The notes under the pieces were generated by a model that ran no database searches, had not been told where the DNA came from, and worked only from the letters and a program-made list of their open reading frames with translations. 64,000 nt of DNA from Methanothrix harundinacea 6Ac (GTDB lineage: Archaea > Halobacteriota > Methanosarcinia > Methanotrichales > Methanotrichaceae): assembly GCF_000235565.1 (NCBI RefSeq), contig NC_017527.1, positions 992,001 through 1,056,000 of the forward strand, written 5' to 3'. Of the stretch, positions 20,067-25,851 are shown piece after piece. The translations under genes were made by a program, and so were the position numbers. Every line of letters starts with the position of its first letter. Within the stretch, counting starts at the first letter, position 1.

Positions 20067-20105
20067 GGTGTTATCGAGGAGATACCTTGAACTTCTGGCG
20101 GGCAA
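20028..20105 (-). pseudogene. PIN-toxin N-terminal stub joined to a pentapeptide-channel C terminus
   Basis: A 25-codon frame from TTG 20105 (overlapping the AbrB gene end) reads MPARSSRYLLDNTVFIA then TFAKKWQR and stop. YLLDNTVFIA resembles the first strand and first catalytic aspartate of VapC/PIN toxins, the usual partner of an AbrB-type antitoxin. TFAKKWQR matches the end of the pentapeptide protein (AAFIATFARKWQR). The simplest reading is recombination at the shared TTCATCGCCACCTTCGCG sequence, which deleted the toxin body. The PIN assignment rests on ten residues only. Confidence 0.45.
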
Positions 20106-20334
20106 GCTGGTTGCTCTCCTCTTCGATCTCCCGTTCCAATTCATCGAGGTCGACAGACCTGGCCTTCTCTATCGCGTCTTTCAGCAGCGCCCGAAGGTCG
20201 ATCCTCTTGAGAATGATCGTATCCTCTCCGAGGTCTTCGACCGCGAACTCGTCTCCTTCCTTCAGCTTCATCTTCCGTCGCAGGTTGCTCGGAAGCTGCA
20301 CCCTTCCCCTATCGTCGATTTTGGCGAGCGGCAT
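20071..20334 (-). CDS. AbrB/MazE-type DNA-binding protein (probable orphan antitoxin)
   Basis: 87 residues from the ATG at 20334. The N-terminal ~45 residues are a SpoVT-AbrB swapped-hairpin domain (MPLAKIDDRGRVQLPSNLRR, then EGDEFAVEDLGEDTIILKRI). The C-terminal part is an acidic helix (LDELEREIEEESNQLARQ), typical of antitoxins that wrap a VapC or MazF toxin. A longer in-frame extension to 20616 is not supported. Three 9-bp direct repeats lie just upstream, a likely autoregulatory operator. Only a stub of a PIN toxin follows, so it seems to have lost its partner. Confidence 0.8.
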   Translation of the reverse strand: MPLAKIDDRGRVQLPSNLRRKMKLKEGDEFAVEDLGEDTIILKRIDLRALLKDAIEKARSVDLDELEREIEEESNQLARQKFKVSPR

Positions 20335-20348
20335 ATCCCAAACCTCAT

Positions 20349-20375
20349 CCCATTTAACCCATTTATCCCATATAA
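20349..20375. promoter_or_regulatory. three tandem 9-bp repeats, putative AbrB operator and TATA
   Basis: The plus strand reads CCCATTTAA, CCCATTTAT, CCCATATAA in perfect tandem at 20349-20375, 15 bases before the AbrB start. On the coding strand this includes TTATATGGG, which can serve as the TATA box. Repeats overlapping the promoter suggest autorepression. Confidence 0.6.
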
Positions 20376-20629
20376 CGCCTCCGGCCCTCTCCGCCCACTG
20401 GAGCAAAAGACGTGCCCATCTCCGCCGTCGCCGCCCCCCGGGGGCGGGACCGCCCGCCGGGCGGCGCTTGGGGGAGTGGGCGGCAAGGCCGGTTTTGGCT
20501 GCCATTATCAGCCTTTGGATAGGATCACCAGAGGGATGCGAATGATCGAAGATCTGTCTGCTATTTTGTATCGGACCAGGCAGGTTCGCTTGTGTCAAGG
20601 GCTTTTCAGGCTTCACGTTGGCGAGCCAT
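20376..20629. other. non-coding stretch with third copy of GC-rich repeat
   Basis: Between the AbrB promoter and the RelE-type toxin end. It contains CCGCCGTCGCC...GGGGGCGGGACCGCCCGCCGGG (about 20420-20465), the third copy of the GC-rich inverted-repeat block found at about 19951-19995 and 21179-21220. The remainder (20480-20629) has no convincing gene. Confidence 0.5.
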
Positions 20630-21262: not shown

Positions 21263-23224
21263 TCACCGCTGCCACTTTCTCGCGAAGGTGGCGATGAAGG
21301 CGGCCCACATGAAGGTGCCGATTATGGCTTGAATTCCTGTCACTATTTTATAATGTCCTATCGGATTATAAAGGGCATAACCGGGAGTCGCTGAAGTTGC
21401 TATGCTGAACCAAATATAATCAAACCATGCGCTTGTACCTTCAACAGCGTCAAAATACCAGTAATATGAGGCAAAAAGAAAGACCATTAAAATCCAAAAA
21501 CCAAACAATCTAATAGGATGAACTCCGTATCCGAAAATACCTTGAATAAAAACGTATTCGAATAGATCGTATCTTCCGAGCCTCCAAATTTTCGATCCAA
21601 CCAAACTCAGCCATTCGGATACTTGCATTTTCCAGGGCCATGATATCTTTCTTGTTCCTTTGACTCCTTTTTTTATCCTTATTGCTGCCATTTCCCTGTA
21701 AAAGTAATAATCAGCGTCGTCTTTATTTCCTAGATCTTCCATCTTTCTTTTTACTATTCTGCACACTACCTCTTGAGACCATGGATGGCAAAATTTCGCA
21801 TCTTTGAATGATACCCACTTGTGAAATTGATCCTGATTGAAGTGGGCATTCCCGCCGAACTCGGCTTCCTCGAATATGGCATCCTCACCGAATTCAACTC
21901 TCCCAAAGTTGGCGACTCCACCAAACTCCGCTTTTCTGAAGTCGGCAGTTCCAGCCGTGAACTTGGCTCCGCTAAAATTGGCATACCAGTTGAACTTAGC
22001 TCCCATAAAGGTGGCACTCCAGCTGAACTCGACACCCTCGAATTTGGCATCCCCACCAGTGAACTTAGCTTCTCTGAAGTAGGCTTTCCCACCGAACTCA
22101 GCTCCACTGAAGTCGGCAGTTCCGCCTGTGAACTTAGCTTCCCCGAAGTTGGCAGTACTGAGTAATTCGGCTTCCACGAAGGAGGCATCTTCACCGAATT
22201 CAGCTCTCCCGAAGTGGACGTCTCCACCGAACTTAGCTTTCCCGAAGTAAGCATCGCCACCAGTAAACCTAGCTCCTATGAAGGTGGCTTTCCCACCGAA
22301 CTCAGCTCCACTGAAGTCAGCAGTTCCGCCTGTGAACTTAGCTCCTCTGAAGTTGGCAGTACTGCGTAATTCGGCTCCCATGAAGGTGGCATTCCCACCG
22401 AACTCAGATTCTCTGAAGTCGGCAGTTCCACTTATGAACTTAGCTTCCACGAAGTATGCACGTCCACTTGTGAACTTAGCTCTCCTGAAATTCGCATACC
22501 CGATGAATTTAGCATTCCTAAAGTCGGCAATTTTGCCAGTAAATTTTGTCTCTTTGAAGATGGCAATTCCGCCGAATTCGGCTCCTACGAAAGAGCAATA
22601 CTCTCTAAACTCAGCTCTCCCGAAGAGAGCGTCTCGACCGAAATTAGCTCCTCTGAAACCGGCAATTCCGCCTGCGAATTTGGCTTCCATGAAGTTGGCA
22701 ATTTCCTCGAACTCAGAACCCTCAAATTTGGCGTCTCCGCCGAACTTAGCTCCCTTGAAATTGCCATATCCCGCGAACTTAGCATACCTGAAGTCGGCAT
22801 ACTTGCCGAATTCGGCTCCTTTGAATCTGCAATTCGCGCCTGTAAATTCAGCTCCCCAGAAGTTGGTAATTCCGCCTGTGAACTTAGCTTTATCGAATTT
22901 GGCATCCCCATTGAATTTAGCTCTCATGAAGTTGGTACTAACATCGAAATTAGTTCCCAGAAAGGTGATTTGCTCCTGAAATTTGACATTGTAAAATTTT
23001 ACCTCACTCCGAATCTCAGAATTTGTGATTGTTATCGGTGAGATTATCACTTTCCGCTGTTCAGACAAAACCCCTTGCTCCATTGGCAACTCCAGCCCGC
23101 TTATATCCAGATCTCCCTCGACGATGACGCCGTCGTACTCGACGTCCTCGCCCCGCTCGATCTTGGCCAGGATCTCCCTCGCCTGAATCACGGGGCGCTG
23201 GTCTGAGCTGGTCTCCGGTTCCAT
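21263..23224 (-). CDS. pentapeptide-repeat protein with C-terminal 2-TM pore-like domain
   Basis: 653 residues from the ATG at 23224 that starts MEPETSSDQRPVIQAREIL, shared with the paralog at 23278-24786. Residues ~25-50 carry YDGVIVEGDLDISGL, then about 430 residues of AxFxxAxF pentapeptide repeats (right-handed quadrilateral beta-helix). After a linker, two membrane helices flank a pore-like segment WFDYIWFSIATSATPGYALY and end in AAFIATFARKWQR. The position equals the K+ channel filter, but TVGYG is replaced by ATPGY. The protein is probably a membrane channel or sensor with a large cytoplasmic beta-helix; activity is unknown. The 3' end is duplicated near 20040. Confidence 0.85.
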   Translation of the reverse strand: MEPETSSDQRPVIQAREILAKIERGEDVEYDGVIVEGDLDISGLELPMEQGVLSEQRKVIISPITITNSEIRSEVKFYNVKFQEQITFLGTNFDVSTNFMRAKFNGDAKFDKAKFTGGITNFWGAEFTGANCRFKGAEFGKYADFRYAKFAGYGNFKGAKFGGDAKFEGSEFEEIANFMEAKFAGGIAGFRGANFGRDALFGRAEFREYCSFVGAEFGGIAIFKETKFTGKIADFRNAKFIGYANFRRAKFTSGRAYFVEAKFISGTADFRESEFGGNATFMGAELRSTANFRGAKFTGGTADFSGAEFGGKATFIGARFTGGDAYFGKAKFGGDVHFGRAEFGEDASFVEAELLSTANFGEAKFTGGTADFSGAEFGGKAYFREAKFTGGDAKFEGVEFSWSATFMGAKFNWYANFSGAKFTAGTADFRKAEFGGVANFGRVEFGEDAIFEEAEFGGNAHFNQDQFHKWVSFKDAKFCHPWSQEVVCRIVKRKMEDLGNKDDADYYFYREMAAIRIKKGVKGTRKISWPWKMQVSEWLSLVGSKIWRLGRYDLFEYVFIQGIFGYGVHPIRLFGFWILMVFLFASYYWYFDAVEGTSAWFDYIWFSIATSATPGYALYNPIGHYKIVTGIQAIIGTFMWAAFIATFARKWQR

Positions 23225-23277
23225 CGCTATTACCATTCAATGACAAGGAATTTAAAACTCTCTTCTTATGAAAGCAC

Positions 23278-24786
23278 TCACCTGATGAACTTGCGGGCCA
23301 AAACGACCACGAAAAGCGCCATGAGCAAGTATCCCAGGATCGCCTCTATCATAGCTAAAGATCTTAACCATCGTTCTTCTATCAGAATATCGGCCTCACC
23401 TCCGGTGAACGTAATCAATCCCCCAGTAAACGTCATTATGCTAAAATAGAAGCTTTCAAAAATCGAGTCGAAATAACCTAAAAAAATGATACCTATAATA
23501 AAAACAACACCGAAGATTGAAAGGACAGTGTGAAGGGGACGAACACCATACCCACATGATATCCAAGAGATGATGTCCATAAATTTTGACCAATCCCAGC
23601 CTTTTTCATTATCATACAGCTTCTTCCGGTCTTGGCTCTCCCTTCTGTATTGATAGTAGCAATCATCAGCGTCATCGAACTGCTCCAAGGCTTTGAAGTT
23701 TTTTATTAATGCCAAGTAAGCGGGGCCGCTGTAAACTAGCTTGTCCTTGATTGAATTCCACGTTATATATAATCCTTCAGATTTAAAATTGCCCAATTTC
23801 AGCTTGTTATCGAACTCAGCTTTCATGAAGTTTGCATACGCACCGAACTTAGCTCCCGAGAAGCCAGCTTCTCCGCTGAACTTGGCTCCTCCGAAGTCGG
23901 CATCCGCGCCGAACGTGGCGGCTCCCCCAAGGTTGGCTGCCCCGAAGGTGGCATCCCCGCGGAATTTGGCGTCAATGAAGAATGCAATCCGGCCGAACGT
24001 GGACCCCATGAATAACGCATTGCCCCCGAACTCCGCGTCAATGAAGAAGGCATTACCGCCATTGAACTCAGTCCACAAGAAGTTGGCATTCCCACCCGAG
24101 AACACTGCATACGCGAAGTTGGCATCTCCGCCGGCAAATTCGGCTTTCACGAAGTTAGCATTCCCGGCGAACTTGGCACCCTGGAAACGGGCATCTCCGC
24201 CTGTGAACTTGGCGTCCGTAAAGTGAGCACCACCATCCGAGAAGACCGCAGACGCGAAGTCGGCATTTTTGCCGAATTTGGCTGCGTTGAAGTTTGCACA
24301 CCCGCAGAATTTGGTTATCCAAAATTTAGCATCCCAACCAAACTTGGCCCTGAAGAAGTAGGCATCACCGCTGAACTCAGCTTCTCCGAAGCAGACACTC
24401 CCAGCGAAATTGGCCTCTGTGAAGGAAGCATTCCCGGTGAACTTGGCCCCTATGAATGAGGCATCCCCGCCGAAATAGGCTCCATTGAAGTTGATGGGCT
24501 CCTGAAAGCGAGCATTACTAAAGTTTACCTTACCTTTGATCTCAGAGTTGGTGATGGTCATCTCCGATACTATCACCTTCAGTTCGTCGGACACTCCGAG
24601 CCCCACGCTGTGCACACTGTCGGACTCCCTGTCCACGTCCTCAGTGCGCAGGTCCAGCCCGCTTATATCCAGGTCGCCCTCAACGATCACGCCGTCGTAC
24701 TTGACGTCCTCGTCCCGCTCGATCTTGGCCAGTATCTCGCTCGCTTGAATCACTGGGCGCTGGTCTGAGCTGGTGTTTGGTTCCAT
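23278..24786 (-). CDS. pentapeptide-repeat protein with C-terminal 2-TM pore-like domain (paralog)
   Basis: 502 residues, same architecture as the following gene: a near-identical N terminus (MEPNTSSDQRPVIQASEIL), a YDGVIVEGDLDISGL strand, about 270 residues of pentapeptide repeats, a charged linker (DDADDCYYQYRRESQDRKK), then two membrane helices. The second membrane block reads FYFSIMTFTGGLITFTGG, then RSLAMIEAILGYLLMALFVV, which is the layout of bacterial 2-TM cation channels. The filter is TFTGG in place of TVGYG. The two genes are tandem on the minus strand, about 50 bases apart, and likely arose by duplication. Ion selectivity and ligand are unknown. Confidence 0.85.
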   Translation of the reverse strand: MEPNTSSDQRPVIQASEILAKIERDEDVKYDGVIVEGDLDISGLDLRTEDVDRESDSVHSVGLGVSDELKVIVSEMTITNSEIKGKVNFSNARFQEPINFNGAYFGGDASFIGAKFTGNASFTEANFAGSVCFGEAEFSGDAYFFRAKFGWDAKFWITKFCGCANFNAAKFGKNADFASAVFSDGGAHFTDAKFTGGDARFQGAKFAGNANFVKAEFAGGDANFAYAVFSGGNANFLWTEFNGGNAFFIDAEFGGNALFMGSTFGRIAFFIDAKFRGDATFGAANLGGAATFGADADFGGAKFSGEAGFSGAKFGAYANFMKAEFDNKLKLGNFKSEGLYITWNSIKDKLVYSGPAYLALIKNFKALEQFDDADDCYYQYRRESQDRKKLYDNEKGWDWSKFMDIISWISCGYGVRPLHTVLSIFGVVFIIGIIFLGYFDSIFESFYFSIMTFTGGLITFTGGEADILIEERWLRSLAMIEAILGYLLMALFVVVLARKFIR

Positions 24787-24828: not shown

Positions 24829-25851
24829 TCACCCCAGGTCCGCCATCTCCGGAGGCCGAAAGATACCCCGCTCGGTGATGATCGCCGTCACGAGATCGAG
24901 GGGCGTGGCGTCGAAGGCCGGGTTGTAGACCTCGACTCCGGGCGGAGCCAGCTGCCTCTCACCCAAACGCCTGATCTCGTCCGCGTCCCTCTCCTCGATC
25001 TCGACCTCCTTTTCTGAATGAGCGAGGTCGAAGGTGGAGATGGGGGCGGCGACGTAGAAGGGGATCCCGTGGGCCCTCGCCAGGACGGCGTGGGTGTAAG
25101 TGCCGATCTTGTTGAAGACGGCGTCCCTGGTGATCCGGTCGGCGCCGACGATCACCTTGTCGATCTTCCCCTGGCGCATGACCATCCCGGCCATGCTGTC
25201 GCAGATGAGGGTGACGGGGATGTTGTCTTCAGACAGTTCCCAGGCCGTCAGCCTGCTCCCCTGATGAAGCGGCCTCGTCTCGCAGGAGTAGACGCTGATC
25301 TTCTTGCCTTCGGCGACCGCCGACCGGATGACCCCCAGGGCCGTCCCCCAGCCGACGCAGGCGAGCCTCCCGGCGTTGCAGTGGGTGAGGACGACGTCGC
25401 CGTCTTCCAGGAGGCGGGCGCCCCGGTCGCCGAGGGCTCTGTTGATCGAAACGTCCTCCCCGGCGATCAATTCCGCCGCCGCCAGGGCCGCGGCCCGGAT
25501 CTCTTCGACGCCGGCCGATCCGCCCATCTCGTCGACGGCCTTTACGGCCCGGTCTACGCCCCAGGAGAGGTTGACGGCGGTGGGCCTCGCCGCCCGGATG
25601 ACCCCGGCCGCCTCTCTGACGTCATGGAGGAGGGCGGCTGGATTGGTGGCCGCCGATCGCGCCGCCGCCAGGGCGACGCCGTAGCCCCCCGCGGCGCCGA
25701 GGGCGGGAGCCCCCCGGACCCGCAAGGACTGGATCGCCTCGCAGAGCTCGCCGACGGAGCCGACCAGAATATCTTCAAGCCTCTCGGGGAGGAGGGTCTG
25801 GTCGATCATCCCGACGGCCTTTTTCTCGTCGTCCCACCAGATCGTCCTCAA
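24829..25851 (-). CDS. mtnA: S-methyl-5-thioribose-1-phosphate isomerase (MtnA/eIF2B-like)
   Basis: 340 residues of the aIF2B/MtnA family. SLRVRGAPALGAAGGYGVALAA near the N terminus, THCNAGRLACVG with the catalytic cysteine, CETRPLHQGSRLTAWEL, and VGADRITRDAVFNKIGTYTHA with the catalytic aspartate fit methylthioribose-1-phosphate isomerase. In archaea this family also includes ribose-1,5-bisphosphate isomerase, but the motifs favour MtnA. TTG start. It follows rpiA by four bases, so two sugar-phosphate isomerases form one unit. Confidence 0.9.
   Translation of the reverse strand: MRTIWWDDEKKAVGMIDQTLLPERLEDILVGSVGELCEAIQSLRVRGAPALGAAGGYGVALAAARSAATNPAALLHDVREAAGVIRAARPTAVNLSWGVDRAVKAVDEMGGSAGVEEIRAAALAAAELIAGEDVSINRALGDRGARLLEDGDVVLTHCNAGRLACVGWGTALGVIRSAVAEGKKISVYSCETRPLHQGSRLTAWELSEDNIPVTLICDSMAGMVMRQGKIDKVIVGADRITRDAVFNKIGTYTHAVLARAHGIPFYVAAPISTFDLAHSEKEVEIEERDADEIRRLGERQLAPPGVEVYNPAFDATPLDLVTAIITERGIFRPPEMADLG

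Follow-up and report, generated by a model that had tools for sequence, protein, structure and literature searches.

Tandem pentapeptide-helix proteins of Methanothrix harundinacea carry K+-channel-like pore units with rewritten selectivity filters

Two adjacent minus-strand genes in the window, the 64,000-nucleotide stretch of DNA analyzed here, encode proteins (P1 and P2) that link a pentapeptide beta-helix to a C-terminal two-transmembrane (2-TM) unit of K+-channel type, and we found the K+-selective signature T-x-G-Y/F-G to be absent from both, with TPGYA in P1 and TFTGG in P2. With a probability of roughly 55%, we take P1 and P2 to be ligand-gated P-loop cation channels without K+ selectivity, which possibly co-assemble and serve in stress or defense. 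K+ channels are the standard example of a near-invariant filter. A pore joined to pentapeptide repeats is an architecture of an already known kind; the surprising part is the conserved rewriting of the filter.

Both open reading frames are intact, with P2 lying upstream of P1:

21263..23236, minus strand: P1, 657 aa; N-cap, long pentapeptide beta-helix, helical linker and 2-TM pore with TPGYA filter
23278..24786, minus strand: P2, 502 aa; N-cap, pentapeptide beta-helix, helical linker and 2-TM pore with TFTGG motif
21782..23014 (approximate limits), minus strand: P1 pentapeptide beta-helix, Pentapeptide_3 in 12 stretches
23764..24759, minus strand: P2 N-cap and beta-helix, residues 10-341, AlphaFold2 pLDDT mostly >90

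An initial annotation of this DNA had ascribed to both proteins a common N terminus of the type MEPxTSSDQRPVIQA and a long pentapeptide beta-helix, and we find it to be right on both counts. The N-terminal sequences are MEPETSSDQRPVIQA in P1 and MEPNTSSDQRPVIQA in P2, the first ~100 residues are 68% identical, and the common N-cap (VIQAxEILAKIERxEDVxYDGVIVEGDLDISGL) shows 72% identity. Pentapeptide_3 (PF13576, gathering cut-off 27 bits) is matched well above its cut-off by P1 (196.8 bits, E 4.8e-59) and by P2 (111.1 bits, E 2.9e-32), and the model of the P2 N-cap and beta-helix matches the HetL pentapeptide fold with a Z-score of 20.3. The organism's own 2.57-Mb genome holds further paralogs, one of which is interrupted by an in-frame stop, and the family has ~100 matches in 23 of 41 related genomes, a recurrence that goes far beyond what chance would give.

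The pore of P1 is mapped as follows:

21269..21517, minus strand: P1 pore unit TM1 - pore helix - filter - TM2, residues 574-656, AlphaFold2 pLDDT ~86-97
21374..21388, minus strand: P1 filter T-P-G-Y-A, aligned with TLGYG of homologs

This pore is a homolog of K+-channel pores. P1 scores 27.8 bits against Ion_trans_2 (PF07885), above the gathering cut-off of 22.5, and 40 of the 44 members of the alignment of P1 and its relatives match the same model; a profile of P1 and these 43 relatives found KirBac3.1 at 2.7e-9, followed by Shaker and NaK. The C-terminal helices of the P1 model (115-136, 145-157 and 170-197, model numbering) have high pLDDT, and KirBac3.1 pores superpose on it with a Z-score of 11.6 and 2.4 Å over 85 residues. 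Because Z-scores <13 may often arise between helical bundles, it is the sequence match that bears weight for the P1 pore. Foldseek E-values of the P1 and P2 models were all >0.001. In alignments of the relatives, the pore helix and TM2 rank with the most conserved segments, and dN/dS values of about 0.21, 0.13 and 0.32 against three orthologs indicate purifying selection on the P1 pore. The earlier proposal that the C-terminal unit is laid out like a 2-TM K+ channel is thus borne out, strongly for P1 by Ion_trans_2 and KirBac3.1, and more weakly for P2.

The case for a channel pore in P2 is indirect, drawn mostly from the sequences of its clade:

23284..23538, minus strand: P2 pore unit TM1 - pore helix - filter - TM2, residues 417-501, AlphaFold2, moderate to low confidence
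23398..23433, minus strand: P2 filter region TFTGG-LI-TFTGG, with a 21-nt tandem duplication that its nearest relatives lack

P2 itself lies below the Ion_trans_2 cut-off (10.9 bits versus 22.5). In its own genome, only P1 and another channel at C2:1100436 match this model, and P2 and the other paralogs therefore escape it. Of 16 members of P2's wider clade, 14 match Ion_trans_2 (E up to 1, best 9.7e-19), and a profile of this wider clade reached KirBac3.1 at 1.1e-4, compared with E 0.077 only for a profile of P2's own clade. Moreover, the P-loops of the P2 relatives align without gaps with those of canonical members reading TTIGYGD. The model places TM1 at 417-436, the pore helix at 442-453 and TM2 at 472-501 with moderate to low confidence, and the filter stretch 457-466 has a pLDDT of ~45, below 50.

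The two filters had been reported as ATPGY and TFTGG in place of TVGYG. Their letters (ATPGYA in P1 and TFTGGLITFTGG in P2) stand, but the register in P1 does not: it is T-P-G-Y-A that aligns on the T-L-G-Y-G of Thermococcus, Archaeoglobi and other relatives, with T, G and Y of T-x-G-Y-G retained, x replaced by P and the last G by A. In the P2 clade, T-F-T-G-G-D-P-D aligns on T-F-T-T-I-G-Y-G of the relative L022. P2's nearest relatives have a single TFTGG, and the duplication in P2 spans 7 residues; the five repeated codons of the 21-nt duplication differ at synonymous sites only.

A survey of homolog filters, as suggested in the initial annotation, found most of those in Methanotrichaceae to be altered. 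The K+ signature is kept in 2 of 79 members from this family of acetate-eating methanogens versus 28 of 38 elsewhere, a figure that depends on how the relatives were fetched, and a canonical filter is present in 30 of the 117 rows overall. The large set of such channels in Methanotrichaceae is apparently undescribed. The tree of the aligned rows splits into two deep groups: 46 rows, P1 among them, with mostly canonical or TPGY filters, and 71 rows, P2 among them, in which nearly all filters are altered and a canonical trio is nested; by these positions, the P1 and P2 pores come from different deep groups. Relatives with an intact TLGYGD share the rest of P1's module, and a starred set of 39 rows unites them with P1. 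The canonical state changes at least 5 times, 3 of these forced by starred branches, on a quick tree that kept the filter columns and gives rough counts of filter changes. To judge from the aligned rows, several altered filters are conserved across genera: PG is kept in 16 of 16 xPGY rows, drawn from Methanotrichaceae and other archaea, and TSQAP recurs over several genera. N-caps do not sort by pore type, and the genes therefore look like mosaics in which a shared cap is combined with different pores.

The channel genes occupy a conserved chromosomal setting:

24829..25851, minus strand: IF-2B family isomerase, conserved upstream neighbor of the pair

In the window, as in three related genomes, the channel genes come after SepRS, rpiA and the IF-2B-type isomerase. 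A TGG-type gene is followed by a TPGYA-type gene in L069, the order is reversed in L070, and in L083 only the P1 type is present, broken across two frames. An opposite-strand 330-aa open reading frame separates the isomerase from the channel pair in L069 (8868-9857) and has no counterpart in the window. In other genera a SQGP-like type precedes a TSQAP type, often by a few bases (L071-L074). The first gene of this pair is decayed in L077 and L078; since the partner has decayed in some relatives, pairing is not obligatory. In the G024 partner (L072, 3511-4905), the filter loop and much of TM2 are gone through an in-frame deletion. Neighboring channel genes are found in about 12 of 23 genomes, where random placement would predict 0.9. 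Such neighbors could arise by tandem duplication alone, yet the pair members appear in different clades of the tree, and it is plausible, and can fairly be inferred, that P1 and P2 co-assemble as a hetero-oligomer.

Many clade-II members, including the own-genome paralogs L003, L005 and L007, begin with a signal-like hydrophobic segment, which P1 and P2 lack, as do those TPGY members whose N-terminus can be read. Its presence in some members only would place the beta-helix on opposite sides of the membrane among members. On the quick tree, the state of this segment changes at least 11 times, and the tail charge averages +1.1 with the segment versus +2.6 without it. A tie between membrane inversion and filter loss was rejected, as independent pairs on the tree give it no support.

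In the mechanism that we propose, P1 and P2 would belong to the tetrameric P-loop superfamily, as subunits of membrane ion channels in which a cytosolic pentapeptide beta-helix acts as sensor or scaffold and is linked to the 2-TM pore via the helical linker. A ligand, be it a nucleic acid, a nucleotide or a protein, would bind the beta-helix, and the linker would relay the ligand-induced change to the gate. Conduction of cations with little or no K+ selectivity is most likely, because TPGYA in P1 and the GG-acidic loop in P2 both depart from T-x-G-Y-G, although the altered filters could instead be closed or non-conducting. The channel would be shut except under a stress signal, its opening would collapse ion gradients, and P1 and P2 may share one assembly.

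A narrower reading, which overlaps with this mechanism as a special case of it, is that P1 and P2 are HalA-type anti-virus or abortive-infection effectors, kept shut by a bound nucleic acid or protein whose loss on infection leads to opening and growth arrest; we hold it as a tentative possibility. HalA is an ion channel blocked by poly-dA (PMC13275509), and in the Hailong anti-phage system the HalA channel is held closed by single-stranded DNA that HalB makes, and is released by phage exonucleases (PMC13275509; PMC12657230). The initial annotation had called the role of pentapeptide-channel fusions poorly described, and our literature search found no paper on the archaeal ones, but the annotation missed HalA, a relative of known role. 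HalA (PDB ID: 9nyi) is the first Foldseek match of the full P2 model (E 5e-3, with poor overall superposition) and the only listed match with a long stretch over the P1 linker and pore (Z 11.1, 159 residues, rmsd 5.6). The only NCBIfam match of the P1 C-terminus is the HalA profile NF051894, at 15.9 bits over positions 249-336 where the equivalog cut-off is 250 bits, and this is the NCBIfam model matched by most members of the P1 alignment (34 of 44, best 1.1e-6); P2 has no match to it at E up to 0.01. Near-full-length, co-linear matches to the 338 positions of the profile, running through a pentapeptide-like region, the linker and the pore, are found in L181 (52-337, 2.2e-9), L136 (55-337, 3.5e-6) and L129 (57-336, 0.0018). 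Model positions 52-140 match pentapeptide proteins in general, which suggests that the N-terminal part of HalA is pentapeptide-like. A linker-only profile run against the PDB gave nothing useful. The likeness to HalA is drawn from the NF051894 profile and the structure matches.

The multi-copy nature of the family, with its decayed members, also speaks for a HalA-type effector, while the scores far under 250 bits, the missing HalB and the setting of the genes speak against it. HalB (NF051895) was not found in the genome, where the best match reaches 20.7 bits versus 190 and covers only 29 positions at the model start, outside the window. PADLOC gave no match, and the locus is chromosomal, syntenic and placed behind housekeeping genes, not in a defense island. 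We rejected membership of P1 and P2 in the Hailong system, as both score far under the HalA cut-off and HalB is missing from their genome, but they may still work like HalA. No NTase was found among the scanned neighbors of the window pair, and an adjacent NTase as a stand-in for HalB was likewise rejected, as MNT-type motifs occur only near L004, L128 and L055/L184. The own-genome paralog L004 (1249-2447; C2:1421254-1422447) has an in-frame TAA, by which it is probably a pseudogene, and is followed by open reading frames with an MNT-type nucleotidyltransferase motif; such a motif also lies near a TGG-type fragment in L128.

It is rather unlikely that the pore unit is now a plain membrane anchor or scaffold, with the beta-helix as the working part (for example, as a DNA mimic or in protein docking) and the filter drifting. 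The near-absence of the K+ signature from Methanotrichaceae, the great diversity of filters, the pore loop lost in one G024 partner and the signal-like segment that would flip the module in the membrane of some members could all be understood in this way. However, altered filters are strongly conserved within clades (xPGY, TSQAP and TGG), and the conservation of the pore helix and TM2, together with the purifying selection on the P1 pore, speaks against a mere anchor. Our preferred reading, a ligand-gated channel, can be carried further, to a conjecture that we regard as doubtful in its full form: Methanotrichaceae would possess a multi-gene set of HalA architecture with repeatedly rewritten filters, in which tandem dissimilar subunits form heteromers gated by beta-helix ligands and act as stress or antiviral effectors with no dedicated NTase.

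That P1 and P2 are ordinary K+ channels, with filters that are atypical yet K+-selective, is improbable. The retention of T, G and Y in P1 and its sister group with TLGYGD would fit, but the final glycine of P1 has become A and x has become P, and P2 has almost none of the motif.

Two further genes flank P1:

20630..20920, minus strand: ParE-type toxin, neighbor of P1, not next to syntenic pairs
20071..20616, minus strand: AbrB/MazE-type protein, neighbor of P1

Their same-strand adjacency to P1, noted in the initial annotation, is real, but neither gene occurs next to the syntenic pairs L069 and L070, and the AbrB-like reading of L083 is further off, with an unrelated dehydrogenase in between, so that linkage is not conserved and a single toxin-antitoxin module with the channels is rejected as highly improbable. 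Carriage as phage or plasmid cargo was rejected as well: P2 has no phage match, the P1 pore has no relative on viral contigs, and plasmid matches to the P1 C-terminus are weak only.

The family provides dozens of pores in the same frame with many lineage-conserved filters, the canonical one included, and because one frame carries so many different filters, closely related proteins can be used to test how filter sequence affects selectivity. Given the link to HalA, gating by beta-helix ligands may be a general property of pentapeptide channels, with nucleic acid as a candidate ligand class.

Compared with known systems, P1 shares with HalA the linker and C-terminal 2-TM pore fold, and P1's relatives share its domain order; P1 and P2 differ in a much longer beta-helix, an archaeal chromosomal locus and profile scores far under the equivalog cut-off. 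The pentapeptide proteins with Ion_trans_2 pores of Thermococcus, haloarchaea and Aeromonas have the same architecture and keep TLGYGD, which P1 and P2 lack. Those of Thermococcus (L149-L173) and Aeromonas (L198:4353-5312), with TLGYGD intact, have at their very N-terminus a short Cys/His motif, such as CEYTYENGKKCRLKPLEGSKYCPLH, that is possibly a zinc site. KirBac3.1 and NaK resemble P1 in pore fold and profile homology and differ in filter sequence and regulatory domains. NirBac channels, which are non-selective relatives of KirBac, have, like P1 and P2, a K+-channel-type pore in which the filter is replaced by an unrelated sequence. They differ in carrying Kir domains, whereas the sensor of P1 and P2 would be the N-terminal beta-helix; a C-terminal Kir domain is absent from P1 and P2, whose chains end within a few residues of TM2. 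NirBac filters are unrelated to TxGYG, that of NirBac2.1 reading TTGTD, and Li+, Na+, K+ and Rb+ pass alike (PMC4607889); by this analogy, little selectivity is to be expected of the P1 and P2 pores.
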